Assembly: GCA_016283605.1 (NCBI GenBank)
Contig: JAEENF010000158.1
Span: forward strand, 1-34,088
Direction of reading: 5' to 3'
DNA from: Prevotella sp.
GTDB lineage: Bacteria > Bacteroidota > Bacteroidia > Bacteroidales > Bacteroidaceae
Length of the DNA stretch: 34,088 bases
The position numbers and the translations under genes were made by a program. This document shows positions 11,801 to 32,443 of this stretch, piece by piece. The notes under the pieces were generated by a model that saw nothing but the letters and a program-made list of their open reading frames with translations, was not told where the DNA came from and ran no database searches. Position 1 is the first letter of the stretch. Every line of letters starts with the position of its first letter.

Positions 11801-11809
11801 GCAAAGGTA
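11801..11809 (-). promoter_or_regulatory. -7 promoter element of the patatin operon
   Basis: Read on the minus strand the bases are TACCTTTGC, an exact TAnnTTTGC match, ending 8 bp before the ATG at 11792. A convincing -33 TTTG at the usual distance was not found. The short gap implies a very short leader. Confidence 0.55.
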
Positions 11810-11852
11810 GTATTTTTTTTAGAAACTAAAGACAAATAGGCTATTTTTTAAC

Positions 11853-12763: not shown

Positions 12764-12795
12764 TTTGCGCTTTGCATTTTTATATCTATCTTTGC
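12764..12795 (+). promoter_or_regulatory. Bacteroidota-type promoter of the susC/susD pair
   Basis: TTTG at 12764-12767 and TATCTTTGC at 12787-12795 match both consensus elements with a 19-bp spacer, the best promoter in the window. The ATG at 12820 follows after 24 bp. Confidence 0.75.
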
Positions 12796-18724: not shown

Positions 18725-18757
18725 ACAAAGGTACAGCAAATCGCTCAAACCACCAAA
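18725..18757 (-). promoter_or_regulatory. Bacteroidota-type promoter of cysS
   Basis: On the minus strand TTTG (18754-18757) and TACCTTTGT (18725-18733) are separated by 20 bp and lie 20 bp upstream of the cysS ATG (18704). Confidence 0.7.
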
Positions 18758-18830: not shown

Positions 18831-20810
18831 ATGAAACTTAACGTATTAAAACTATTCCTTTTTATGACGATGATGTGCCAAGTGGCTATGGCACAGGACA
18901 ACGTCAATCTGAAATTCGGCAAACCCACCAAGGAAGAAATGCAGATGACGATTTACGAGGCTGAGCCTGACGCTGAGGCCGTAGTATTGTGTCGTCTGAC
19001 GGATGTGGAATATACCGTGCAGACCACCAGCTTTTTGGTGGACTATCGTGAGAAGTGCCGCATCAAGGTGCTGAAACCTAGTGGCGCCCGCTTTGCGAAG
19101 GTTGTCGTACCTTTCCAGAAGAACATGTCAGCATATAACATCGGTGGCTCGAAAATCACAGCCATGTCACTTCCAAAACCTGGAGGTAGTTCCGACTCCT
19201 ATTTCGAGGGAGAGGGCGTCTCTATGACTGAACAAATCTTTGACGCCAGTGCTGATGAGATGGTGGAGAGTATCAAGGCCACGGCCTTCAACCAGGAAGG
19301 TGGCAAGGTGGTGAAGACATCGCTGAAGAAAAGTGACATCGTAACGACAAAGATTGACGAACAGAACTATCAAGTGGAGTTTACCGTTCCTAACGTAAAA
19401 GAGGGTACGGTGATCGAATACGAGTACAATATCCACAGTCAGTTATTCTGGACATTGCGCGACTGGTATGCCCAAGGCGAGATACCCGTGGTCTATGCAA
19501 AACTGGATATGAATATTCCTAACTACCTGATTTTTAATATCGAGGATCACGGCATCCAGCGTCTGACATATACCTGTACGATGGGAAGTCTGAAATTCAA
19601 GGTGGTCAGCGACCCACTGGCTAATCCTATGACTGTAAACACCAACCATTACGTCTATACCGGCCGCAACCTGAAAGGTATGCCGAAGGACGACTATGTG
19701 TGGAATATTCAAGACCACTGTGCAGGCATCACAGCCGAACTGAAGACCTACCGTCTGCCAGGCATGAACCAGATGGACTATGCCAAGACTTGGGAACAGA
19801 TTGACGAAATGTTGCTCGACGATGATGACTTTGGCAAACAGACAGCCAACCACAGTCCGCTGCGCGAGACTCTGGAGACTGCTAAAGTAAAAGACATCAC
19901 CAACGAACAAGAACGGGCGGCAGAGGTTTGTCGTCAGGTCTTGAACCACGTAAAATGGAACGGAAAATACGAAATACATCCTGAGAACACCAGTGAAACA
20001 CTAAAGAAAGGCGAGGGCACCAATGCCGATATCAACATGCTACTGATCCAGTCGCTTTGCGATGCGGGGTTGCAGGCCTATCCCGTTGTGCTCCGTGAGC
20101 GCAACAAGGGACTGCTACCCTATAACTTCCCCTCGCTCAGCAAGTTGTCGACCTATGTGGTGGGCATCAAATACAGCAATGGGGCATTGGCCTATATCGA
20201 TGCCTCATCGAAGGCCGGACACCTGAATGCGCTGCCAGAGGTGCTACAGGTGGAGAAAGCACGTCTGATTGCCAAGGGCAAGGGTAGCACATGGGTGAAC
20301 CTCCAAAAGATATCACGTGCACAGACGGCTACTACTATCGTTGCCGTGCTCGATGCCGATGGGAAGCTCACGGGGACACAGACCACTCTCAACAAGACTT
20401 TAGATACCAAAGAGGAGGTGGCATTCACCAAACAAGGCGAAGTGAAGGACGACAAGATCTATATCAACCCCTTCTACACCGCTCCGATAGAGAAGAACCC
20501 GTTTACTGCCGAGACGAGAATCATGCCCGTAGAGTTCCCATCAGAGCTCTCTGAGCAGATGACAATCGACATCACCCTGCCCGAGGGTTACGTGTTGGAG
20601 AGTGAACCTTGGAAGATCGTTGCCACGACGCCTGATAAAGGCATCGAAGGCCGACTGGTCACCACCACTTCTGAAAAGATGACCCGTGTAAGATATCTGT
20701 TTAACATCAATAAGGTGTCACATTCTGAAAAGAACTATGACACCTTACGAGGAATCTTCGATCTGATATCGAAACGCAGCGCGGAACCGCTGATCTTTAA
20801 GAAGAATTAG
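18831..20810 (+). CDS. Exported DUF3857/transglutaminase-like protein, catalytic cysteine not evident
   Basis: 659 residues from ATG 18831. Signal peptide at 1-22 (MKLNVLKLFLFMTMMCQVAMA). Residues about 40-260 fit DUF3857 (VEYTVQTTSFLVDYREKCRIKVL, VPNVKEGTVIEYEYNI). A transglutaminase-like core follows at about 365-465 (AAEVCRQVLNHVKWNGKY, EGTNADINMLLIQSLCDAGLQAYPVVL, AYIDASSKAGHL). Where active members have GDCKD with the nucleophile Cys, this one has GEGTNADI, so it is probably not a working transglutaminase. The C-terminal third is beta-rich and unassigned. Bacteroidota carry many such proteins, with no firm role known to me. The gene stands alone and its stop overlaps that of the convergent 20807 gene. 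Confidence 0.85.
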   Translation: MKLNVLKLFLFMTMMCQVAMAQDNVNLKFGKPTKEEMQMTIYEAEPDAEAVVLCRLTDVEYTVQTTSFLVDYREKCRIKVLKPSGARFAKVVVPFQKNMSAYNIGGSKITAMSLPKPGGSSDSYFEGEGVSMTEQIFDASADEMVESIKATAFNQEGGKVVKTSLKKSDIVTTKIDEQNYQVEFTVPNVKEGTVIEYEYNIHSQLFWTLRDWYAQGEIPVVYAKLDMNIPNYLIFNIEDHGIQRLTYTCTMGSLKFKVVSDPLANPMTVNTNHYVYTGRNLKGMPKDDYVWNIQDHCAGITAELKTYRLPGMNQMDYAKTWEQIDEMLLDDDDFGKQTANHSPLRETLETAKVKDITNEQERAAEVCRQVLNHVKWNGKYEIHPENTSETLKKGEGTNADINMLLIQSLCDAGLQAYPVVLRERNKGLLPYNFPSLSKLSTYVVGIKYSNGALAYIDASSKAGHLNALPEVLQVEKARLIAKGKGSTWVNLQKISRAQTATTIVAVLDADGKLTGTQTTLNKTLDTKEEVAFTKQGEVKDDKIYINPFYTAPIEKNPFTAETRIMPVEFPSELSEQMTIDITLPEGYVLESEPWKIVATTPDKGIEGRLVTTTSEKMTRVRYLFNINKVSHSEKNYDTLRGIFDLISKRSAEPLIFKKN

Positions 20811-22708
20811 TATTCCAGTCCAATGTAGCTGTGGGCGGGGAGCTTGAGGGCGAAGACAGTAGCGCCATGGTGGCTGAAATAGCGGCCACGAAAGTAACGG
20901 TTCGGGGCGGACTGTTCCTCCTGGGGTTGGAGGGTCTCGCCGGTGAGGAGGTTGCGCAGCGACGACACCTTCGCGTTGATGATGACATTCACCGAGACGG
21001 CCTCATCGTTGAAGTTCTCGACGACGAGCGTGCGGTTGTCGTAGGGGAAGAGGGCTACCTTCGAGGGACCTTCGATATAAGCCCCGGCATCGAGACTCAT
21101 GGTACGGCGGATGACGTTGAGGGCCTGTGCGGGATAGTCGTAGAGGTTGCCGAAGTCGTCGGGGATGGTGAGCACGAAGAGGGTGCCCTTGGAGTAGGTG
21201 TTACGCAGCAGGATGGGATAGCCGGAGACACCACCATTGAGCGGACGGCCTGCGGAGACCACCTCCCAGGCATCGTTGGTGAAGTACTTCACCTGCGGGA
21301 TGATAAACTCACGCTCGGACTTGCCCTGCCAGCCGAAGTCGTTGACGATGGCCTTCAGGTCGCCACAGTAGAGTTCGCAGACATCAGCGAGCTCCTCGCG
21401 AATGGCTTTCAGAAGTCCGGTGGTGACGATGACATCGCCACCCTTACGGAGCTGGGCCTTGATCTTCTCCACAATCTGCGGGTCTTTCGCGGCCTGCTCG
21501 GTGAGGAGAATCTGCTGACGGTCGGTGAGGAACTGGGGGTACATGTCCATCGGCAGTCCGATCATACCGAGGTAGTTCTGCAGGAAGTCCTCGCCGGAGG
21601 AGTGCCAGGGTTTGTAACTGGCGATTCCGACGGGACGGCCGAGCTTACCTACAAGGGCATCGGTCTGCTGGAGGGTGACACTGGCGAAACGGGCCATCGT
21701 CGTGGGCGTGACGCTCTTGCCGTTCTTCGTGAAGGGTGCCACCATCTCGTCGTAACGGAAACTGTTGCCGCCGGCATCCTGCCACGCCCTACGCATCATC
21801 TCAGGCTGAATCTTCACGTCGTGGAGCTGCATGTAGTTCCAGAGGATGATCTCGGGGGTCTTCGCCAGCATCGTCAGATGAAGCTGTTCGGCGTAACGGT
21901 CCATGCTCATGTTGATGCCGCCGGCATCCACCCAGCCACCGCCATTTTTGCCAGGTGCGATATTGTCGAAGTAGCGGATGATGTTATAGCTGAGATAGTT
22001 CTGCAAGTGCTGCGCCGAGCCTGGGTCACGGGTCTCGGTACCTGTCCAGATGCCGTCAAAATAGAGGGGTTCTTCCTCGAGGTTGAAGCCGAGACCGTGG
22101 AAGTGGTCATACCAATTAGGATACTTGATGATGACCTTCACTTTCGGGTTGACTTTCTTCGCTGGTTCCACGACGAGTTCGCGACCGGCATCGGCCATGA
22201 GGCGCAGACGGTATTCCGTCCAGCTTTTCGTGCCCTTGGCGGCAATCTCATCATCGTTCTTCAAGTCGATGAAGAAGAAGTCGTCGAGGATGAAATCGTC
22301 GAAGAGTTTCGCGGTGAACTCTGCAACTTCTTTCACAGTCTGGCGCTCGTTGGCGCGGGCATAGCTGTAGGTTTCGAAGTCCTTAGGCTCCGAGCGGGTG
22401 TAGGTAATACCACCGCCCACCTCAAGGCCTTTCGACAGGAAGAACTTCTTCACTTTCTGCATGGTCTTCTCATCGACGGTGAACGCGTCACGGTGGGTCT
22501 CGAGGTAGATCTTATCGAGGTCTACCTGTGAGCTCACGGTCTCCCACGTCGCATTGAGGAACTTTTCATCTGCCATCCGCGCCACATCCTGCGCACGGAT
22601 ATACGATGACACCTTGAAATTCTGATACTTGCCTTTTCCCATAACAGGCATTGTGGCCAAAACGGCTGCTCCTACTAAAAGCATTCTGCTCATCATTTTA
22701 CTTATCAT
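20807..22708 (-). CDS. Exported putative glycoside hydrolase with GH42-like layout, family not recognised
   Basis: 633 residues with a signal peptide (1-24). Residues about 30-345 look like a TIM barrel: VGGGITYT near 97-104, DDFILDDFFFIDL at 137-149, VIIKYPNWYDHFHGLG near 192-207, YFDGIWTGTETRD near 216-228, and PEIILWNY near 285-292. Acidic residues at strand ends (DDFFF, GTETRD) are possible catalytic groups, but I cannot assign them. Residues about 350-500 resemble a GATase-like trimerisation domain as in GH42 (LRKGGDVIVTTGLLKAI). A C-terminal beta-sandwich follows (VALFPYDNRTLVVENFN). I cannot name the family. It is last in the minus-strand carbohydrate block, separated from GH3 by an AraC remnant, and its stop overlaps the convergent DUF3857 stop. 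Confidence 0.75.
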   Translation of the reverse strand: MISKMMSRMLLVGAAVLATMPVMGKGKYQNFKVSSYIRAQDVARMADEKFLNATWETVSSQVDLDKIYLETHRDAFTVDEKTMQKVKKFFLSKGLEVGGGITYTRSEPKDFETYSYARANERQTVKEVAEFTAKLFDDFILDDFFFIDLKNDDEIAAKGTKSWTEYRLRLMADAGRELVVEPAKKVNPKVKVIIKYPNWYDHFHGLGFNLEEEPLYFDGIWTGTETRDPGSAQHLQNYLSYNIIRYFDNIAPGKNGGGWVDAGGINMSMDRYAEQLHLTMLAKTPEIILWNYMQLHDVKIQPEMMRRAWQDAGGNSFRYDEMVAPFTKNGKSVTPTTMARFASVTLQQTDALVGKLGRPVGIASYKPWHSSGEDFLQNYLGMIGLPMDMYPQFLTDRQQILLTEQAAKDPQIVEKIKAQLRKGGDVIVTTGLLKAIREELADVCELYCGDLKAIVNDFGWQGKSEREFIIPQVKYFTNDAWEVVSAGRPLNGGVSGYPILLRNTYSKGTLFVLTIPDDFGNLYDYPAQALNVIRRTMSLDAGAYIEGPSKVALFPYDNRTLVVENFNDEAVSVNVIINAKVSSLRNLLTGETLQPQEEQSAPNRYFRGRYFSHHGATVFALKLPAHSYIGLEY

Positions 22709-22873: not shown

Positions 22874-25135
22874 TTATTTGATAGTTGTTGTCTGACTTAA
22901 TGGCAATTGTGCTGACGAGCCGCCGACGTGGACGGTCAGCTCTCCGGGCTCTAACTTCCAGGACTGACTGGACTCCTCCCAATGGCAGAGGTCAGAGCAC
23001 CGTAGAGGAATCGTCACGGCCTTGTGCTCACCGCGCTTCAGAGCTATGCGCTTAAAGCCTTTCAGTTCCTTCACAGGACGTTCGATACTTGATGCGGGGC
23101 GCGAGACATAGATCTGTGCCACCTCTTCGGCCTCGAACTGGGAGTTATTGGCTAACGTGAAACTGACATCGAGACCGTCGGCCGTGGGCGAAACTCTCAG
23201 GTCGCTATATTCGAAAGTCGCATAAGAAAGCCCGTGACCGAAAGGATAGGCCGGAGTTACACCCTTACTGTCATACCAACGGTAACCCACGAGATCCTGC
23301 TCGGCATAGTCGGCGACGAGTTGCTGACGGCGGTCATTACTGCGGTTACGGATGATATCGACGAAAATATCGCCCTGATTATTGTTAGCGACATTCTGCG
23401 GATAGGTACCTGTAGCATAAGCGGGCACATCCTCGAGTTTCTTCGGCCACGTCATCGGCAACTTACCGGAGGGCGTAGTATTTCCCGCAAGCACTTCAGC
23501 TAACGCCAGACCGCCCATCGAACCATTGAACCATGAGACGATAAGGACGGGAGAAACGGCGCTGACCGTGCTGACATCCACGGGGCCTCCGGCGACGATG
23601 ACCGTCACCAGACGAGGATTCGCTTTTGCAAGGGCTTGGGCCAGTTCGTCCTGTCCTGAGGGCAGGGTAATGCTCTTGCGGTCGGAGCCTTCGGTCTCGA
23701 CCTCACGGTTGTCACCAGCAAAGAAGATCACAAGATCGGCCTCCTGAGCCACCTTTACGGCCTCAGCCATGAGGGCAGGGTCACCAGGCTGCTGCGGACT
23801 CTGACGCTTGTTACGGCTATCTCTGTCGAAACTCTTGTAGCCTGGCGCGTAGGTGATTATCTTCCCACCACCGAGTACGGCCTGCAACCCCTCGAGAGGC
23901 GTAATCTCTTTGCGGGTCTTGACACCGGCACCCACTCCACCGAGCGCCATCTTCGTCATAGCATTCTCACCAATGACGGCAATACGCTTTACAGATGTCA
24001 GGTTGATGGGTAGCAAGGGCCAGGGTTGGTTCTTCGCCGCCTTCAGGGCATGCTTCCCGACAATGGGCTCGTTCTTCAGCAGCACAATGCTGCGCCGTGC
24101 CACCTGCAGGGCCGTCAGCATCTCATCGTCATTACCCACAGGCTTCTTGTTGGCTTCCTCTCTTGCGACGGGTTTCACCGTCAGACGCACTCGCAGAATC
24201 TCACGTACACGCTGGTTGATGACGTCCTCGCTCACCTTTCCTGCTTTCACAGAGTCGAGCAGCGCCTGACCGAAGAAACGATTTCCCGGCATTTCGACAT
24301 TCATTCCTGCGGTTACGGCATCCACCGTGGAGTGGACACCGCCCCAGTCACTGATGACCATGCCTGGAAATCCCCACTGCCGACGCAGAATGGTGGTGAG
24401 CAGCGGTTCATTCTCGGAACACCAACGCCCATTGACCTTATTATACGCTGCCATCACTCCCCAGGCATCTGCCTCGCGGACAGCCATCTCGAAGGGTCGC
24501 AAATAGATCTCATGCATGGCACGGTCAGAGATGTGTACATCGACAAAACCACGATAGTCTTCCTGATTGTTCAGTGCATAATGTTTCAGACAGACAGCCG
24601 TACCATCCTCCTGTGCGCCCTTCGTATAAGCCACCGACAGCATGCCACTCAACAAGGGGTCTTCACTCAGATACTCATAGGTGCGACCACCTGTGGGGAT
24701 GCGCTGAATATTGATAGCAGGGCCGAGAATCATGTCCTTACCCCTCAGCCGCGCCTCACGGCTCATACCCCGCCCGTATGCGTAAGCCCACTCCATACTC
24801 CATGTAGCAGCCAACGCCGAACCCGTGGGGAAGAATGTGGCCGAGTCCGTCGTCAGATGGGCGGAGTTCCAGGAATGAGGCTCCATCTCCTCACGGATGC
24901 CGAAGGGACCGTCGGCATACTCCATATCGGCGATACCCTGACGAGGAATACCCGCCGAAGAGAACATATTCTTACCATGAAGCATGTCGATCTTCTCTTC
25001 GAGCGTCATACTCCTGATGATATTATCTATCTGCTGCTCATGTTCCAGCAACTTTGTCGGGTACAGTTGTCCCTGAACTCCAATGCTGAATACCATCGCA
25101 ACGCCCACTAACACTATTCTTCTGCGCTTCTTCAT
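22874..25135 (-). CDS. Glycoside hydrolase family 3, probable exported beta-glucosidase
   Basis: 753 residues from ATG 25135; the longer frame needs a TTG in the repeat. Signal sequence at 1-22. The N-terminal TIM-like domain has DGPFG (75-79), GPAINIQRIPTGGRTYEYLSEDP near 138-160, KHY (184-186) and nucleophile Asp263 in VISDWGG. The second domain has the expected acid/base region REVETEGSDR. A fibronectin-type III-like C-terminal domain (SFTLANNSQFEAEEVAQIYV, LKGFKRIALKRGE) completes the usual GH3 plan. It should release glucose from non-reducing ends of beta-glucans or cello-oligosaccharides in the periplasm; beta-xylosidase activity cannot be ruled out. It is cotranscribed with the Gfo/Idh gene 24 bp upstream. 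Confidence 0.93.
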   Translation of the reverse strand: MKKRRRIVLVGVAMVFSIGVQGQLYPTKLLEHEQQIDNIIRSMTLEEKIDMLHGKNMFSSAGIPRQGIADMEYADGPFGIREEMEPHSWNSAHLTTDSATFFPTGSALAATWSMEWAYAYGRGMSREARLRGKDMILGPAINIQRIPTGGRTYEYLSEDPLLSGMLSVAYTKGAQEDGTAVCLKHYALNNQEDYRGFVDVHISDRAMHEIYLRPFEMAVREADAWGVMAAYNKVNGRWCSENEPLLTTILRRQWGFPGMVISDWGGVHSTVDAVTAGMNVEMPGNRFFGQALLDSVKAGKVSEDVINQRVREILRVRLTVKPVAREEANKKPVGNDDEMLTALQVARRSIVLLKNEPIVGKHALKAAKNQPWPLLPINLTSVKRIAVIGENAMTKMALGGVGAGVKTRKEITPLEGLQAVLGGGKIITYAPGYKSFDRDSRNKRQSPQQPGDPALMAEAVKVAQEADLVIFFAGDNREVETEGSDRKSITLPSGQDELAQALAKANPRLVTVIVAGGPVDVSTVSAVSPVLIVSWFNGSMGGLALAEVLAGNTTPSGKLPMTWPKKLEDVPAYATGTYPQNVANNNQGDIFVDIIRNRSNDRRQQLVADYAEQDLVGYRWYDSKGVTPAYPFGHGLSYATFEYSDLRVSPTADGLDVSFTLANNSQFEAEEVAQIYVSRPASSIERPVKELKGFKRIALKRGEHKAVTIPLRCSDLCHWEESSQSWKLEPGELTVHVGGSSAQLPLSQTTTIK

Positions 25136-25140
25136 ATCAT

Positions 25141-25168
25141 AACTCTTAACTGTCAACTCTCAACTATC
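25141..25168 (-). repeat. Heptamer tandem repeat at the Gfo/GH3 junction
   Basis: Plus-strand units aactctt (25141), aactgtc (25148), aactctc (25155) and aactatc (25162), the same family as in ispG and patatin. They include the Gfo/Idh stop codon and its last Ser codon and fill the spacer to the GH3 ATG. Confidence 0.8.
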
Positions 25169-26131
25169 CATCGGATACCTTACGCCCCACTTCTGACGCA
25201 GCCCGTCCATGAGCTGCATGATATAGAGCGTCTCGGCATGCGGCATCTCACGAGGCTCCTGCAATCCCTCTGCAAGGGCCTCACGACAGGCGAGGAACTG
25301 GTATTCGTAACCCGTGATCTGCTGCGGCACGCGGATGGTTTCTACATAGGTACGATCCGGACCATTCACAGTAATCGTCTGCGGATTGTTGATATTGTCG
25401 ATGATGAGGTTACCCTCGGTACCTGCGATGACACCGATATTGTCACCTACACACTGCGCCGAGCTCTGCACATTAGCGAGGATACCATCTTTCAAAATAA
25501 TGGTAATGGCATTGGTAAGATCCATACCCGTATCAGATTTCACACAATGACCGTCGATGCTGACAATATCGCTATCCGTAAACATACGCACGAAATTCAG
25601 TGCATAGACACCGAGGTCGAGCAAGGCACCACCGCAGAGGTCGGGACGCATGATACGGGGTTTATTACCCATCGAATAGCCTAGCGTGGCAGTGATCAGG
25701 TGCGGCGTTCCTATACGGCCGTCGGCAATAAGCTGTCGCATGGTAGCAACGACAGGCTGGTAACGTGTCCAGATGGCCTCAGCAATAAAGACTTTCTTCT
25801 CATGGGCAAGGTCGAGGATCTCCTTCGTCTGTCGGGCATTAGCCATAAAGGCTTTCTCCACGAGACAGGGCTTACCTGCGAGAATCGCCTCGCGTGTCAC
25901 ATCGTAATGATGGGAATGAGGTGTGCCCACATACACCAAGTCGACGTCAGGGTCGGCCAGCAGTTCATTGTATGAGCCATAGGCCTTCGGGATGTTCCAT
26001 TTCGCCGCGAAGGCTTCGGCCGTCTCTTTCTTCCGCGAGCCCACAGCGTAGGCTTCGCAGGTGTCTAATCCGTTTAAGGTGATGGCCGCCTTCTCGGCAA
26101 TCCATCCCGTTCCTATGATTCCAACTCGCAT
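25160..26131 (-). CDS. Gfo/Idh/MocA-family NAD(P)-dependent oxidoreductase
   Basis: 323 residues, cytoplasmic. Rossmann motif GIIGTGWIA (4-12), and the family signature EKAF at 92-95 with the catalytic-type Lys93. The alpha/beta C-terminal part begins near 120 (EAIWTRYQPVV), with GGALLDLGVYALNFV near 165-180. The Tyr-containing GVY version and the short length resemble the dihydrodiol dehydrogenase/glucose-fructose oxidoreductase-like subgroup, whose members oxidise sugars or related polyols. The substrate is unknown; the position between an alcohol dehydrogenase and a GH3 suggests a sugar. It starts 1 bp after the dehydrogenase stop, so translation is coupled. Confidence 0.9.
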   Translation of the reverse strand: MRVGIIGTGWIAEKAAITLNGLDTCEAYAVGSRKKETAEAFAAKWNIPKAYGSYNELLADPDVDLVYVGTPHSHHYDVTREAILAGKPCLVEKAFMANARQTKEILDLAHEKKVFIAEAIWTRYQPVVATMRQLIADGRIGTPHLITATLGYSMGNKPRIMRPDLCGGALLDLGVYALNFVRMFTDSDIVSIDGHCVKSDTGMDLTNAITIILKDGILANVQSSAQCVGDNIGVIAGTEGNLIIDNINNPQTITVNGPDRTYVETIRVPQQITGYEYQFLACREALAEGLQEPREMPHAETLYIMQLMDGLRQKWGVRYPMDS

Positions 26132-26132
26132 T

Positions 26133-27317
26133 TTACCCTCTTGCCATTTTATAGATGGATTCCATATCTTCGGCCTTCAACACTTTCAGACAGCCACAGG
26201 TCGAGGTGTAGTCACGGCTGCACTTACGGGTCATTTCCTTGATCTCCTCATCAGAAATATCCTTACCGATGAGTTCCTTGATGTTGATGGGCATACCTAT
26301 AGCGTGGTAGAAACGCTCCATGGCCTCAATACCCTTCAGGGCAGTGCCCTCGGGATCCGTGAAGTCATTGGGCACACCCATCACATTGACAGCGAAGCGC
26401 ACGAAGCGACACAGATTCTCATGCATCACATAACGTGCCCACGATGGCCAGATAGCAGCAAGTCCTGCACCATGAGTGACATCAAACATACCACTCAGTT
26501 CATGTTCCAACTGGTGCGTGGCCCAGTCATCAGCGACACCACAGCCCGTAAGTCCGTTGTGCATCAGACTGCCACCCCACATGATCTGTGCACGGTAGCG
26601 ATAGTCCTCAGGATTCTTCAATACGGCAAATACGGCATCCTTGATTGAGCGCAGCATAGCTTCAGCGATGTCGGTCGTGAATTCCATATCGTCATCCTTG
26701 GTGAAATAACGCTCCATGGTATGCATCATCATGTCGGTCACACCGGCTGCCGTCTGATAAGGAGGCAATGTAAAGGTGCGACGGGGATTCATAATGGCGA
26801 ACTTAGGACGGGAGAGGTTATTCGAGTAGCCAAGCTTTACATCGCCCTCCTCGTTAGTGATTACCGATGCCTCACTCATCTCACTGCCGGCAGCGGGAAT
26901 CGTAAGCACACAGGCTACAGGCAACATCTTCTCAGGTTGAGCCTTACCCAGATAGAAGTCCCAGACATCACCCTCATAGGGTACGCCATAAGCAATACAT
27001 TTCGACGAATCAATGACACTACCGCCACCCACAGCGAGGATAAAGTCGACACCCTCCTGACGACAGAGTTCGATACCTTTCTGCGCCAACGATAGACGGG
27101 GATTAGGCACGACACCACCGAGGGTAACAAACTCGACACCGCCTTCTTTCAGCAATCCGCAGACCTTATCGAGCAATCCCGACTTGACAGCACTCTTTCC
27201 ACCATAATGTACCAGCACTTTCGTGCCACCATATTTCTTCACGAGGACAGCTACCTGCTCCTCACTCTTTTCACCGAACACCACTTCCGTCGGTGCATAG
27301 TAATTAAAATCCTTCAT
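26133..27317 (-). CDS. Iron-type (group III) alcohol dehydrogenase, BDH/YqhD-like
   Basis: 394 residues, cytoplasmic. The nucleotide-binding loop is GGGSVIDS (97-104). Metal ligands line up with those of YqhD: Asp195 and His199 in GVTDMMMHTMERYF, His268 in THQLEHEL, and His282 in FDVTHGAG. Such enzymes reduce aldehydes to alcohols with NAD(P)H. Bacteroidota genomes often annotate this type as butanol dehydrogenase, but a role in clearing sugar-derived or reactive aldehydes is equally possible. It lies within the GH9-GH9-ADH-Gfo-GH3 block, 26 bp after the second GH9 and 1 bp before the Gfo/Idh gene. Confidence 0.92.
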   Translation of the reverse strand: MKDFNYYAPTEVVFGEKSEEQVAVLVKKYGGTKVLVHYGGKSAVKSGLLDKVCGLLKEGGVEFVTLGGVVPNPRLSLAQKGIELCRQEGVDFILAVGGGSVIDSSKCIAYGVPYEGDVWDFYLGKAQPEKMLPVACVLTIPAAGSEMSEASVITNEEGDVKLGYSNNLSRPKFAIMNPRRTFTLPPYQTAAGVTDMMMHTMERYFTKDDDMEFTTDIAEAMLRSIKDAVFAVLKNPEDYRYRAQIMWGGSLMHNGLTGCGVADDWATHQLEHELSGMFDVTHGAGLAAIWPSWARYVMHENLCRFVRFAVNVMGVPNDFTDPEGTALKGIEAMERFYHAIGMPINIKELIGKDISDEEIKEMTRKCSRDYTSTCGCLKVLKAEDMESIYKMARG

Positions 27318-27320
27318 ATT

Positions 27321-27344
27321 TTTACTTCTTTACCTTTTTACCTT
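27321..27344 (-). repeat. Octamer tandem repeat at the GH9/ADH junction
   Basis: Plus-strand units tttacttc (27321), tttacctt (27329) and tttacctt (27337). They fill the spacer between the GH9 stop (27344-27346) and the ADH ATG (27317). Period 8, otherwise the same placement as the heptamers. Confidence 0.65.
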
Positions 27345-29890
27345 TAAATATTTTTTGCTGCTAAAACGAGGAACATATAGTGCGACGATCCGCCACCGAG
27401 CACATACTCCGTCTGCTGCCATAGGAAGGGGAAGGTGAGCAGTTCAGGGAAGTCTGGACGAATCAGCGCCGTACCAGAGACCACGCCACCAGGGATATAC
27501 GACCAATCCGCACGATTCAGACCGTATGCCACCGTAGCCGACTTAGCCCCCACACCCGAAGCAAAGGAAGCGGTATTGCTGCCTGGATGACAACCTAACA
27601 CGAAGTTCAAGGCATTATAAACGGTCTCCTTCGGGAAAATGTCGGGATAAGCTGCCGCAAGGAAATAATACTCAAATCCAAAGCGCTGGATGTCCCAGCC
27701 TGCACCCCAGATACTCGGACGATAGGGTACACCGTAAGGTGTCTCTGCCGCCTGCTGATCAAGCTGAGTCTTATAGCCCATGAGGGCATTGCGATAGGCG
27801 GCAACAAACTGACGACTGCGTTTGTCTTTCTTGGTTTCCAGTTCCTTGGCAACACGGGCGATAAACCAGGCCGAACGGCCTACGCTCCTTACGATCTGCT
27901 CCTGCTGACTCAGCACGACATCGAGATACTCTGCCTCGCCCGTCGTCAGATACAGTTCTACGGCAGCCTGAAGCTTCATGCCCGCCATCATCCCTGACAC
28001 TTCCGTCTGATGATAGATATCAGCAGCAATCTGCTGACACTCATAGCTCAGTTCGTCGTTGAATCCCCGAAGTACACGGGCGGCACCTGCCAACTGTGCC
28101 GCTGTAGAGAGGGCACGCATGGGATTATCCTCGGTAAAGATCCAACGGTCGTCGTCATTGCCGATGATACCGTCGGTCATTGCTGCCGCGTCACCAAGCA
28201 TGGCATACTGGCGCAACGAGTTACAGATGATACCACGATACAGCCGACCAAGCGCCTGATAACTGCGTACAACGGTCAGTGCACCGTTCTCCACCTGTTG
28301 CAGGATGTCGTTCTTACCGTCGGGCTCATGGATCTCCACACGATGCCGCTGCTGGTCGATAGCCGTCGCATCAATTTCCGGATGGAACTGCTCATAGGCC
28401 AGTGCGAGGATATAGGCCTCCCCGGCCTGCGACTCCACACGAAGGTCGAAGTCGCCGGCATCGTGCCAACCGCCGACATTCACACCCGGCACCTTTTCTC
28501 CCTCTGCATATTTCGAGAGACCGGGCTGCTGGTCGTAGCCGTCAATATGGTTTCCCACATGCGCCATCAGGGCATCATCCATGTGACAGGCATCATGCCA
28601 GATGCGATACTTCTCCGAAACCCTCATGTGACACATCTGCACAGGCAGGAAATACTCGATGACAGGCTGCCACACGCCACGCTCATAGACATCATCGGCA
28701 ATACGGAAGACACTCGAGACACTCTGCCCATACTTCACCTGATAGAGCCCCGGCTCAGTGACTTCACTAAAGTCGGCCGTCAGATAGCGGTAGCGCAGGA
28801 ACTGTCCCCAGACCTTAGGCTCCACACGACAGACGGACTGCTCACCGTTGGCATCGATACGTACCAGATCGGCGTGTCCCACAGCCGTGTCACGTGGGTC
28901 AGTCTCGATGACCACCGTCTTAGGCTGTCTCGTCGTATAACCGATCTGCGAAGTCTGGATGACGGCAGGATAACGCCAGTCCTTATCTACCTCGGGCGTA
29001 ATCAGCCAGCGCACGGCACCCTTCGTGGCACCTTTCGCAATCTCACTGCGCAGCACAAACCAGCCGTTATTGTGGTTCATACGTCCGTCGTAGAGTTTCA
29101 GGTCGCCCGTGAACGACTCCACCCTCAGCTTCTGTGAGGGGGCATCGGGACGGGAGATGAAGATACGACCCACGGCGTAAGGCTCGGCGATGATATCATC
29201 GGCACGCAACGGACTATAGCCCTCACCGTCGAGCTGTGCAAGGTTTGCCTTCTGCTTAGGTGCAGACGGGAATCCGCCACGCGAGGGTGCGGCCTGCGAG
29301 GTGAAGTAATCGCCGTCGTGACCGCGGTTCGTCGCCACCTGCAACAACGGCCCGTTAGGCTGCTGAGGATAGATGCCTCCCGTCTGGTCCATCACCCACG
29401 GTTTGCCAAACAGCTCGCCAGGGAAGAACTCCAGGTTGAAGCCTGCCTTTCCGAGCAGGAAGTCGGGCACAGGCTTGTCGAGATCGACGGTGACCAGTAT
29501 ACCATTGCCCTGAGGCTCTACGTTGACGGTGTAATTCACGTGATAGTCAGGATAGACCATCGGATTGAAACCCGTCATGTGACGCGACGAGTCGGGGTAG
29601 CAGAGCGTCGTCGTGATACGCCCGTTCTCCACCTTCCGACTTAACTGTTTAGGTACGGGCTGCCACTGTCCAGGTGTCGCCTCCATACGGATATCACCGT
29701 TGGTAGCGATACGCTTGCCGTTCATAATGACACACACACCTCCCTGATGACCCTCTGGATAGAAATCACTGAAAGCCATCACGTCAGTACCTCCTGCATT
29801 GAAATAGCCAGCCTCATTCAGCTTAAACGTCTGTGCCGTCGCCATCTCCGCCGTCACCAACGCCATCATCAAAATAACAACCTTTCTCAT
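27344..29890 (-). CDS. Glycoside hydrolase family 9, exported (second of a tandem pair)
   Basis: 848 residues. Signal peptide at 1-19. An N-terminal beta-rich region of about 275 residues, shared with the neighbouring GH9 (LDKPVP, AGFNLEFFP, LYDGRM.NNGWFVLRS), comes first. A CelD-like Ig domain at about 310-400 follows (QTSQIGYTTRQPKTVVI, EPGLYQVKYG), and then the (alpha/alpha)6 catalytic domain with the catalytic base pair in GGWHDAGDFD (Asp477, Asp480) and the acid Glu828 near the end (WQQTEYVLGGG). The usual GH9 HHR motif is replaced by NRADWSYIPGG, so this belongs to a divergent branch. Expected role: endo- or exo-hydrolysis of beta-glucan or a related beta-linked polysaccharide. It is cotranscribed with the GH9 gene 43 bp upstream. 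Confidence 0.9.
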   Translation of the reverse strand: MRKVVILMMALVTAEMATAQTFKLNEAGYFNAGGTDVMAFSDFYPEGHQGGVCVIMNGKRIATNGDIRMEATPGQWQPVPKQLSRKVENGRITTTLCYPDSSRHMTGFNPMVYPDYHVNYTVNVEPQGNGILVTVDLDKPVPDFLLGKAGFNLEFFPGELFGKPWVMDQTGGIYPQQPNGPLLQVATNRGHDGDYFTSQAAPSRGGFPSAPKQKANLAQLDGEGYSPLRADDIIAEPYAVGRIFISRPDAPSQKLRVESFTGDLKLYDGRMNHNNGWFVLRSEIAKGATKGAVRWLITPEVDKDWRYPAVIQTSQIGYTTRQPKTVVIETDPRDTAVGHADLVRIDANGEQSVCRVEPKVWGQFLRYRYLTADFSEVTEPGLYQVKYGQSVSSVFRIADDVYERGVWQPVIEYFLPVQMCHMRVSEKYRIWHDACHMDDALMAHVGNHIDGYDQQPGLSKYAEGEKVPGVNVGGWHDAGDFDLRVESQAGEAYILALAYEQFHPEIDATAIDQQRHRVEIHEPDGKNDILQQVENGALTVVRSYQALGRLYRGIICNSLRQYAMLGDAAAMTDGIIGNDDDRWIFTEDNPMRALSTAAQLAGAARVLRGFNDELSYECQQIAADIYHQTEVSGMMAGMKLQAAVELYLTTGEAEYLDVVLSQQEQIVRSVGRSAWFIARVAKELETKKDKRSRQFVAAYRNALMGYKTQLDQQAAETPYGVPYRPSIWGAGWDIQRFGFEYYFLAAAYPDIFPKETVYNALNFVLGCHPGSNTASFASGVGAKSATVAYGLNRADWSYIPGGVVSGTALIRPDFPELLTFPFLWQQTEYVLGGGSSHYMFLVLAAKNI

Positions 29891-29932
29891 ATATTTACTC
29901 TTATTTTCTGCCTAACAATGTCATCAACATAC

Positions 29933-29946
29933 CTCATTTCTCATTT
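29933..29946 (-). repeat. Two ctcattt heptamers at the GH9 3' end
   Basis: Units at 29933-29939 and 29940-29946 are identical and include the stop codon of the first GH9 gene. Too short to stand alone, but placed like the other junction repeats. Confidence 0.4.
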
Positions 29947-32402
29947 ACTATATTTTTCAGCGCAGAGCCAAAGATGATGTACTGAGTATTTCCAGCAATC
30001 GTTCCCTCGTTCTGACCCCAGAGGAAGGGCCAGTCATCATAGTTCTCGAAATGATCAGGCTTACGGAACAGCAGACCTGGTGCCACATTACCAGGAATGG
30101 CCGAGAAGTCTGCACGGTTATTACCATAGAACACCTGCTTCGGTCGCGTGGCACCCACAACGGCCACAAACGAATAATTATGGTAAGGATGACAACCGTA
30201 GAGCCAATTTGCCACACGATAGACCTCATCCTTCTTCACAATATCGGGGAAATAGATATGGGCATAGTTTACGGTGATGCCGAAGTTCAGCACCGCATTC
30301 ACACCCGCCCAGTTACCCAGACCGATGGGTACGCCGTAAGGATTCTGGGTGTCGAAGCTACGGATGTAGTCAGCATACTGCTGAACGGCAGGCCGGAGCC
30401 CCTCTTTGTAGGCAGCGTCTTTCATGGGTATGCTGTCAAGCATAGTCTGCAGATTACGGGCTACATTGCGGTAGTTACCGTCGCCAGTACCGGTAAGCCA
30501 GTCGTAATCGGCTTCAGCCTGGGCATTCCTGCGACCACGACGCTGCGCCATCAGGGATTCAGCTTCCTTACGCAGACGATCAGCCTGCTTCTGTGCGCGC
30601 TCGGCCAATTCATCGTTGTAGCCTTTCAGGACACGGGCAGCAGAGGTGAATACACCTGCAGCCTGAAGGTCAAGGCTCGGATTGCGATTGGTGAAGGCCC
30701 ACATATCGTCAGGCGTACCCGATCGCTTACCGTCGGCACTAACCTCGTAAGGCTTCAGCGAAGGATCGTAATGCAGACCGTCCGTGATGCTCGCAGCATC
30801 ACCGAGATGGTGATAGTTATCCAGGATACTGTTCGAGAGCGTCGAAGCCATGTGCCCGATCTGCTCAGCCTGAGCCACAAGGTTTAGCACGCCATGTTCG
30901 ATAAACTGCAAAATATCAGGCACGCCGTCGGGTCGGTGCAGATCCACATAACGCTGCTGTTGCGAAACAAAGGTCTCATCGCGTTGTGGCTTAAACAACT
31001 CCCAAGCACGGATAAGGTTCTGTACAACGTTGATGTTCGATCCTGTCTCGATGTCGAAGTCGCCGGCATCGAAGAAACCACCCACATTCAAACCCGGAAT
31101 CAGTTCCAGCGGTTTGTACTTCGTATCTGTCGACGGGCCCTGACGATGCAAATCGAAGTGGTCACTCTCAGGCGCCTGCAGATAACCCTCCTTGAAGGGT
31201 TCTCCATGCCAAGTGCGATAGCCCTCGGTCACATACATGTGGTTCATATGGATCGGCACCCACACATCCGTCGTCGCATCGGTGATCTTATCATAGACGT
31301 GCGCATCGATAAGGAAGTCGTTCGTCTTCGTATTGCCGTACTGGATATAATAGACACCGGGCTCCTTCACCGCCGAGAAGTCGAACTTCACATAATTATA
31401 TTTAAAATAAGGCCCCCACGCCTTCACATCACCTTTGAAAGCTTCTGTCGTCGAACCGTCGGTATTAATACGCATCAGCGAGGCCGTAGATAACATGCGG
31501 TCTTTCTTGTCCAATTCAATCACGGCCACCTTCGGTTGCTCAGGGATATATCCGATCTGCGAGAAACCTATATTCGGCTCACGAATCCAGTTCTCGATGG
31601 CATTGGGCTCCACGGTCCAGGTCACCACCTTGCCAGTCTTGCCCTTCGGTAACACACTCCGCAGCACAAACCAACCGTTCTGCGCCAGCATCCTCCCGTC
31701 GAAGAGTTTCAGTTCGGCATCCTCACTCGTGATCCTGATCATGCGCGAAGGGTCATCCGTAGCCACAATCATCTGATGTCCCGTCTCCAAAGGCAGCGGA
31801 TCAACGAAACGGTCAGTACCACGATCATCGTAGGTCTTGAAGCCCTTGAACTGTCTGGGCTTCTCGCTGTTCGGTCGCGTGATGGTCTGACTGGTTGCAT
31901 AGCGTGGGAAACGATTCAGGCGTCCGTCCATCAGGAAGGTCTTCAGCCAATACTGCGATGGCAGGAACTCGATGTTGAAACCAGCCTCACCGGCAAGCTT
32001 CTCAGGCACGGGCTTATCCAGGTAGACGGCTATCTCCACAGCCTTGCCTTTCGCCGTGACCACCACACGACTATCGAAGTCGTAGTCATCGTAGCGCAAA
32101 CCCACTTCGATACTGCCGTTCTCACGGTCCACCCTGCGGTTCGTCATCTTAGGCACAAGATCCCACTGCTCCGGTGTGTTATTCAACCGGACAGCACCGC
32201 CTTGTACGGTTCTGACACCATGATGAATGATTTCGATACCTGAGTTCTTCTCGTCATTGAACCCGCCGTTAAAGCTGTTGCTGAACACTAATACGTTCAC
32301 ACCCTGCCGCTCAAAATAATCGAGGTCATTGAGTTGCAAATCCTGCGCCTGGCTGACAGAAGTCGCCAACATTCCTGTAAGGACAAATAATAGTCTCTTC
32401 AT
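29934..32402 (-). CDS. Glycoside hydrolase family 9, exported (first of a tandem pair)
   Basis: 822 residues from ATG 32402; an in-frame ATG at 32411 would add three residues before the signal peptide. Signal peptide MKRLLFVLTGMLATSVSQAQ. The layout is the same as the downstream GH9: an N-terminal extension (about 20-270, LDKPVP, AGFNIEFLP, LFDGRM..NGWFVLRS), an Ig-like domain (GFSQIGYIPEQPKVAVI, EPGVYYIQYG), and a catalytic domain with GGFFDAGDFD (Asp445, Asp448) and the acid Glu799 (WGQNEGTIAG). A charged stretch at about 600-630 (ADRLRKEAESLMAQRRGRR) is not present in the other copy. The last residues VNEK are encoded by two ctcattt heptamers. It opens the block; an inverted repeat lies about 40 bp upstream. 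Confidence 0.9.
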   Translation of the reverse strand: MKRLLFVLTGMLATSVSQAQDLQLNDLDYFERQGVNVLVFSNSFNGGFNDEKNSGIEIIHHGVRTVQGGAVRLNNTPEQWDLVPKMTNRRVDRENGSIEVGLRYDDYDFDSRVVVTAKGKAVEIAVYLDKPVPEKLAGEAGFNIEFLPSQYWLKTFLMDGRLNRFPRYATSQTITRPNSEKPRQFKGFKTYDDRGTDRFVDPLPLETGHQMIVATDDPSRMIRITSEDAELKLFDGRMLAQNGWFVLRSVLPKGKTGKVVTWTVEPNAIENWIREPNIGFSQIGYIPEQPKVAVIELDKKDRMLSTASLMRINTDGSTTEAFKGDVKAWGPYFKYNYVKFDFSAVKEPGVYYIQYGNTKTNDFLIDAHVYDKITDATTDVWVPIHMNHMYVTEGYRTWHGEPFKEGYLQAPESDHFDLHRQGPSTDTKYKPLELIPGLNVGGFFDAGDFDIETGSNINVVQNLIRAWELFKPQRDETFVSQQQRYVDLHRPDGVPDILQFIEHGVLNLVAQAEQIGHMASTLSNSILDNYHHLGDAASITDGLHYDPSLKPYEVSADGKRSGTPDDMWAFTNRNPSLDLQAAGVFTSAARVLKGYNDELAERAQKQADRLRKEAESLMAQRRGRRNAQAEADYDWLTGTGDGNYRNVARNLQTMLDSIPMKDAAYKEGLRPAVQQYADYIRSFDTQNPYGVPIGLGNWAGVNAVLNFGITVNYAHIYFPDIVKKDEVYRVANWLYGCHPYHNYSFVAVVGATRPKQVFYGNNRADFSAIPGNVAPGLLFRKPDHFENYDDWPFLWGQNEGTIAGNTQYIIFGSALKNIVNEK

Positions 32403-32443
32403 CTCTAGCATTTTGTTTTATAGTTTTTGTAGGTATAAATTTG

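Follow-up and report, generated by a model that had tools for sequence, protein, structure and literature searches.

The window, a 34,088-nucleotide stretch of a contig from a rumen-type Prevotella sp. analysed as a whole, carries two genes for secreted GH9-like proteins, GH9B (29934-32411, minus strand) and GH9A (27344-29890, minus strand). They adjoin each other with a gap of 43 bp, and both reading frames are intact and lie where the original prediction placed them. For GH9B, either position 32411 (MLEMKRL...) or the following ATG (32402) may be the translation start. BLASTP aligned the two proteins over their full length at 33% identity (E 8e-145), the N-terminal ~250 residues included, and the shared and unannotated region previously proposed for both proteins was borne out. 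On inspection of the sequences by eye, each protein begins with a signal peptide that lacks a lipobox, and both are therefore probably periplasmic or secreted. The features of the locus are as follows.

29934..32411, minus strand: GH9B, secreted GH9-like protein of 825 aa with signal peptide, N-terminal supersandwich, Ig-like domain and divergent GH9 domain
31584..32348, minus strand: GH9B N-terminal extension, residues 22-276, with a predicted galactose-mutarotase-like beta-supersandwich fold (AlphaFold2, Foldseek against the PDB)
31329..31580, minus strand: GH9B Ig-like CelD_N domain, residues 278-361 (Pfam PF02927, E 1e-8)
29937..31328, minus strand: GH9B divergent GH9 catalytic domain, (alpha/alpha)6 (Foldseek, invariant columns)
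31053-31070, 30108-30119 and 30006-30026, minus strand: GH9B motifs DAGDFD, NRAD and the segment containing Glu802
27344..29890, minus strand: GH9A, secreted GH9-like protein of 848 aa with the same architecture as GH9B
28967..29833, minus strand: GH9A N-terminal extension, residues 20-308, a homologue of the GH9B extension (alignment)
28724..28966, minus strand: GH9A Ig-like CelD_N domain, residues 309-389 (Pfam, E 3e-6)
27347..28723, minus strand: GH9A GH9 catalytic domain (Pfam PF00759, E 1e-14)
28445-28462, 27506-27517 and 27407-27427, minus strand: GH9A motifs DAGDFD, NRAD and the segment containing Glu828
26133..27317, minus strand: iron-containing alcohol dehydrogenase (FeADH), YqhD-like, 26 bp downstream of GH9A (Pfam/NCBIfam)
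25160..26131, minus strand: Gfo/Idh/MocA oxidoreductase, recurrent in about 26 related loci (Pfam/NCBIfam)
22874..25156, minus strand: secreted GH3 enzyme, recurrent in several loci related to GH9B and GH9A (Pfam/NCBIfam)
20807..22708, minus strand: secreted 633-aa protein without a family assignment, a recurrent GH9A partner
11802-11836, 12764-12794, 18726-18757 and 32412-32443: matches to a promoter pattern, the last in the wrong direction for GH9B

The FeADH gene likely shares an operon with GH9A, and the gene order as a whole (GH9B, GH9A, FeADH, Gfo/Idh/MocA oxidoreductase, GH3 and the 633-aa protein) likely represents a hemicellulose-processing operon. The 633-aa protein had no match in Pfam, NCBIfam or a PDB profile search; it is highly conserved and occurs near GH9A relatives in four loci (L132, L171, L209 and L211). 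Parts of its sequence give the impression of a GH-A-like barrel with a GATase-like region after it. The Bacteroidota-type promoter pattern TTTG-N17-23-TANNTTTG had four exact matches in the window against 0.34 expected, with no minus-strand match to TTTG-N-TANNTTTG upstream of GH9B.

GH9 membership and catalytic residues

GH9 is a well-known family and is taught as a cellulase family. Pfam detected the CelD_N domain in both proteins and Glyco_hydro_9 in GH9A alone (E 1e-14); GH9B matched no GH9 model of Pfam or NCBIfam, and NCBIfam recognised neither protein. A joint profile of 40 family members matched GH9 chains in the PDB at E 1e-23, including CelD, BoGH9A, J30, a xanthanase and a cellobiohydrolase. 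Similarly, when a full-length model of GH9B (pLDDT 81.8, pTM 0.84) was compared with solved structures using Foldseek, the top 18 matches were all GH9 (E 1e-16 to 1e-8), the best being BoGH9A (6dht, E 1.4e-16) and others being a xanthanase, CelD, CbhA and exo-glucosaminidases, so that the (alpha/alpha)6 fold expected of GH9 was found by comparison with solved GH9 enzymes. Based on the profile and the modelled structure, GH9B is placed in GH9. In the Foldseek structure alignments, the catalytic domains share only about 12-18% identity with GH9 enzymes of known structure.

The catalytic residues were conserved as predicted. An Asp pair and a Glu (D448/D451 and E802 in GH9B numbering, D477/D480 and E828 in GH9A numbering) are invariant across 40 relatives. 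Both proteins are most likely inverting beta-glycosidases that use Asp as base and Glu as acid, as is usual for GH9. The HHR motif matters for the -1 subsite of classical GH9 enzymes. It is absent from all 40 aligned members, which have xNRAD with an invariant Arg at that place, confirming for both proteins the replacement that had been read from the sequence. The xNRAD Arg may stand in for the HHR Arg; profile alignments with HHR-type proteins stop just short of xNRAD, and the loop has a pLDDT below 50 in the GH9B model. HHR is usual rather than universal in GH9, since six other GH9-like proteins that we compared also lack it.

The closest solved structure, BoGH9A (BACOVA_02649), is an endo-xyloglucanase of Bacteroidota. 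Like GH9A and GH9B it has an Ig-like CelD_N domain, an (alpha/alpha)6 GH9 barrel and the catalytic Asp and Glu residues, but it is only 17% identical over the aligned part and has no N-terminal supersandwich, and the BoGH9A-type proteins of related loci keep HHR, unlike GH9A and GH9B. The GH9 exo-beta-glucosaminidases and glucosidases (PBPRA0520, 5dgq; VC0615, 6gdt; 3h7l) also join an Ig-like domain to a divergent GH9 domain and provide an exo-acting precedent; however, they are from Vibrionaceae, lack the supersandwich and are 12-14% identical in structure alignment. The Paenibacillus xanthanase 6fhj has the same Ig-like and GH9 folds and is a precedent for action on a decorated beta-1,4 backbone, but it has other accessory modules, and the match, at 16-17% identity, spans the Ig-like and GH9 parts only.

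The N-terminal extension

The extension ranges from about 255 residues in GH9B to 290 in GH9A. It had no consistent Pfam match in 40 relatives, no match to a known carbohydrate-binding module (CBM) family of Pfam among the same members, and no match to the PDB by sequence even at E=10, so a known module was ruled out by both searches. No named module corresponds to it and, to our knowledge, there is neither a characterised clade that holds GH9A or GH9B nor a member with measured activity. Our AlphaFold2 model of the isolated GH9B extension, built with 40 relatives, is nearly all beta (pLDDT 91.5, pTM 0.90). Its best Foldseek matches in the PDB were mostly supersandwich structures, namely those of a GH38 mannosidase, PL33, PL17, GH101, GH97, rhamnogalacturonan lyases, xanthan lyases and free-standing aldose 1-epimerases. 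Many of these supersandwich structures matched with a Foldseek probability of 0.9-1.0 at TM-scores of 0.32-0.50, which therefore denote likeness of fold class and not membership of the matched families. The extension is thus predicted to be a galactose-mutarotase-like beta-supersandwich.

We surveyed Bacteroidota in three partly overlapping samples of 396, 295 and 295 genomes, about 50 genomes of which carry the extension. Leaving aside truncated pieces at the edges of contigs and a single tiny match, every frame with the extension was at least 811 aa long and also contained the GH9 part, and no other catalytic partner was found in these samples. By this distribution, which is confined to fusions with this GH9 type, the extension looks integral to the enzyme, with no sign of a detachable CBM. 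The proposal that it has a carbohydrate-binding fold holds only loosely: it resembles domains of many carbohydrate enzymes at the low TM-scores given above, and in these samples it never stands apart from this GH9.

GH94 and GH15 are among the families that combine a supersandwich with an (alpha/alpha)6 barrel. GH65 is another, with an N-terminal beta-sandwich, a beta-supersandwich, joined to the (alpha/alpha)6 barrel (PMC8626586), but it differs from GH9A and GH9B in having no intervening Ig-like domain, other catalytic residues, another family and no sequence similarity.

Phylogeny of the pair

The relatives form two clades, GH9A and GH9B, each found across several families of Bacteroidota and separated with a support of 100 in a tree of 40 members. 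GH9B relatives were found in 567 stretches across genome contigs, the best 80 of the 567 being nearly all from rumen Prevotella. GH9B is present in Prevotella sp. khp7 and P6B1. Forcing all copies of the genus together cost 545 log-likelihood units (p-AU 1.4e-47), and tandem duplication within the genus was ruled out by the tree and this test. The original prediction that the pair arose by local tandem duplication and then diverged was accordingly overturned, the clades being phylum-wide. A recent duplication in this lineage with rapid divergence afterwards, as the adjoining genes, common strand and common architecture might suggest, is extremely improbable given the AU test, the presence of both clades in many Bacteroidota families, a same-family genome (G238) with two members of clade A and one of clade B, and the location of both copies on different contigs in about 17 other genomes of a genus sample of 200. 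Because the tree splits the clades and the copies usually lie on different contigs, we concluded that the adjacency of GH9A and GH9B is secondary and rare, with old relatives placed side by side. The two also lie close together in L012 and L014, with a GH10-CE1 protein between them. Our literature search found no papers on this architecture or these two clades; GH9 itself is already known, and what is new here is the unnamed two-branch subfamily.

Gene company and proposed function

Outside the genus, we compared the neighbours of 29 GH9B loci with those of 32 GH9A loci, taking five genes on each side, filtering counts by domain length and using statistics that ignore kinship between loci. Neighbours of the cellobiose 2-epimerase type (AGE) were found at 10/32 GH9A loci and 0/29 GH9B loci (p 9e-4, kinship ignored), and one of these proteins matched solved cellobiose 2-epimerases at E 3e-98. 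Conversely, GH10 or CE1 neighbours were found at 9/29 GH9B loci and 0/32 GH9A loci (p 6e-4, kinship ignored), CE1 alone giving 6/29 against 0/32 (p 0.009), with GH10 and CE1 counts that overlap through GH10-CE1 fusions. GH9A loci outside the genus also had GH26 (three times) and GH130 (twice), a natural GH9A-AGE fusion of 1281 aa (L185:5532-9374, minus strand) and an AGE-GH26 fusion that adjoins a GH9A relative (L167:13415-15781, minus strand). The Pfam tallies for GH9B loci comprised GH10, GH43, CE1, BD-FAE, GH31 and GH8 in the first sample and GH43, CE1, GH115 and GH67 in the second; those for GH9A loci comprised GlcNAc_2-epimerase, GH26, GH130, GH5 and GH88 in the first and GH3, GH5 and GH127 in the second, where the mannan signal is weak.

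The distinct company of each clade makes a difference in specificity between the two copies plausible, as had been suggested, with the duplication part of that suggestion removed. Within the genus the split in company blurs, because GH9B and GH9A flank a GH10-CE1 protein in L012 and L014 and a similar protein adjoins GH9A in L133. As a separate observation, a 1011-aa protein (L213:10654-13686, minus strand) joins AGE to a C-terminal part of ~600 aa without a Pfam match, which has a 65% identical counterpart in L082.

From this evidence we propose, at roughly even confidence, that GH9A and GH9B are two branches of one GH9 subfamily acting on hemicellulose with an integral supersandwich, GH9B on xylan and GH9A on glucomannan or cello- and manno-oligosaccharides. 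In this Bacteroidota subfamily, the architecture runs from signal peptide through the predicted beta-supersandwich and Ig-like domain to an (alpha/alpha)6 GH9 domain, and both enzymes would act in the periplasm on hemicellulose fragments by an inverting mechanism with Asp as base and Glu as acid. The supersandwich may pack on the barrel and close off the cleft to leave a pocket for an oligosaccharide or a chain end, in a manner likened to enzymes of the GH65/GH94 type. GH9B would act on feruloylated or arabino-xylan fragments, after or together with CE1 and GH10 enzymes, and GH9A on glucomannan or cello- and manno-oligosaccharides, the disaccharides passing to a cellobiose 2-epimerase and then to GH130. 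Such an epimerase-then-GH130 pathway, with other hydrolases, is used by Segatella copri on glucomannan (PMC12704710).

We infer the cellular location, the exo or oligosaccharide mode and the substrates of both enzymes. Cleft closure is likewise tentative: the xNRAD loop is among the weakest of the full-length GH9B model, and because its pLDDT is below 50 the pocket shape and exo mode stay at the level of inference. The most specific form of the proposal, with two dedicated hemicellulase branches (one for xylan, one for mannan or glucomannan), an active site completed by the supersandwich, and periplasmic hydrolysis and epimerisation by GH9A together with a cellobiose 2-epimerase, is in our judgement doubtful as a whole. 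We know of no dedicated xylan- or mannan-degrading GH9 enzymes.

Alternatively, the two proteins may be ordinary secreted GH9 beta-1,4-glucanases or xyloglucanases with an accessory domain, their company reflecting the general clustering of hemicellulases in plant-degrading Bacteroidota, which we regard as a serious but minority possibility. It would fit the nearest fold, that of an endo-xyloglucanase, the GH5 endoglucanase-like (CelC-like) and GH3 genes near GH9A relatives, and the fosmids of human-gut Bacteroides uniformis that carry two distant GH9s of 842/844 aa and a BoGH9A-like GH9 and degrade CMC, beta-glucan and xylan and not xyloglucan (PMC5238381). The 842/844-aa proteins may belong to the GH9A/GH9B subfamily. 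In the text consulted the activity is not ascribed to a particular GH9 gene, and the low identity of the catalytic domain to solved GH9 enzymes, the absence of HHR from the aligned members and the significant difference in company between the clades all argue against ordinary glucanases.

Loss of catalysis with HHR, leaving secreted glycan-binding proteins, is unlikely. Dead CAZyme paralogues do occur in PULs, for example GH26B of Segatella copri (PMC12704710), but across 40 diverse members the Asp pair, the Glu and the Arg of xNRAD never vary, which would be unexpected in dead enzymes and disfavours this reading. We assign a similarly low probability to an operon for small plant glycosides instead of polysaccharides, with aglycone release, aldehyde reduction by the YqhD-like FeADH, and Gfo/Idh and SDR enzymes. 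FeADH (about 27 related loci), Gfo/Idh and SDR do recur with GH9B, in 23-27 related loci each and in shuffled order; however, these redox genes are a genus-level feature, and the recurrent partners outside the genus are xylan or mannan enzymes. The GH9B clusters of the genus contain, besides these, an outer-membrane beta-barrel protein, LacI regulators, GH3, a canonical HHR-type GH9, CE1-like esterases and the 633-aa protein. Across the GH9B loci L003-L082, one gene set (FeADH, Gfo/Idh, SDR, the outer-membrane barrel protein and GH3) recurs in shuffled order on either the upstream or the downstream side, an atypical arrangement for an operon.

Because no Pfam or NCBIfam GH9 model scores GH9B, automated CAZyme counts may miss it. 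The fusion of GH9A to a cellobiose 2-epimerase-type domain offers a concrete reaction pair, and if the division between xylan and mannan is true, GH9 would gain hemicellulose branches with clear and cheap test substrates.
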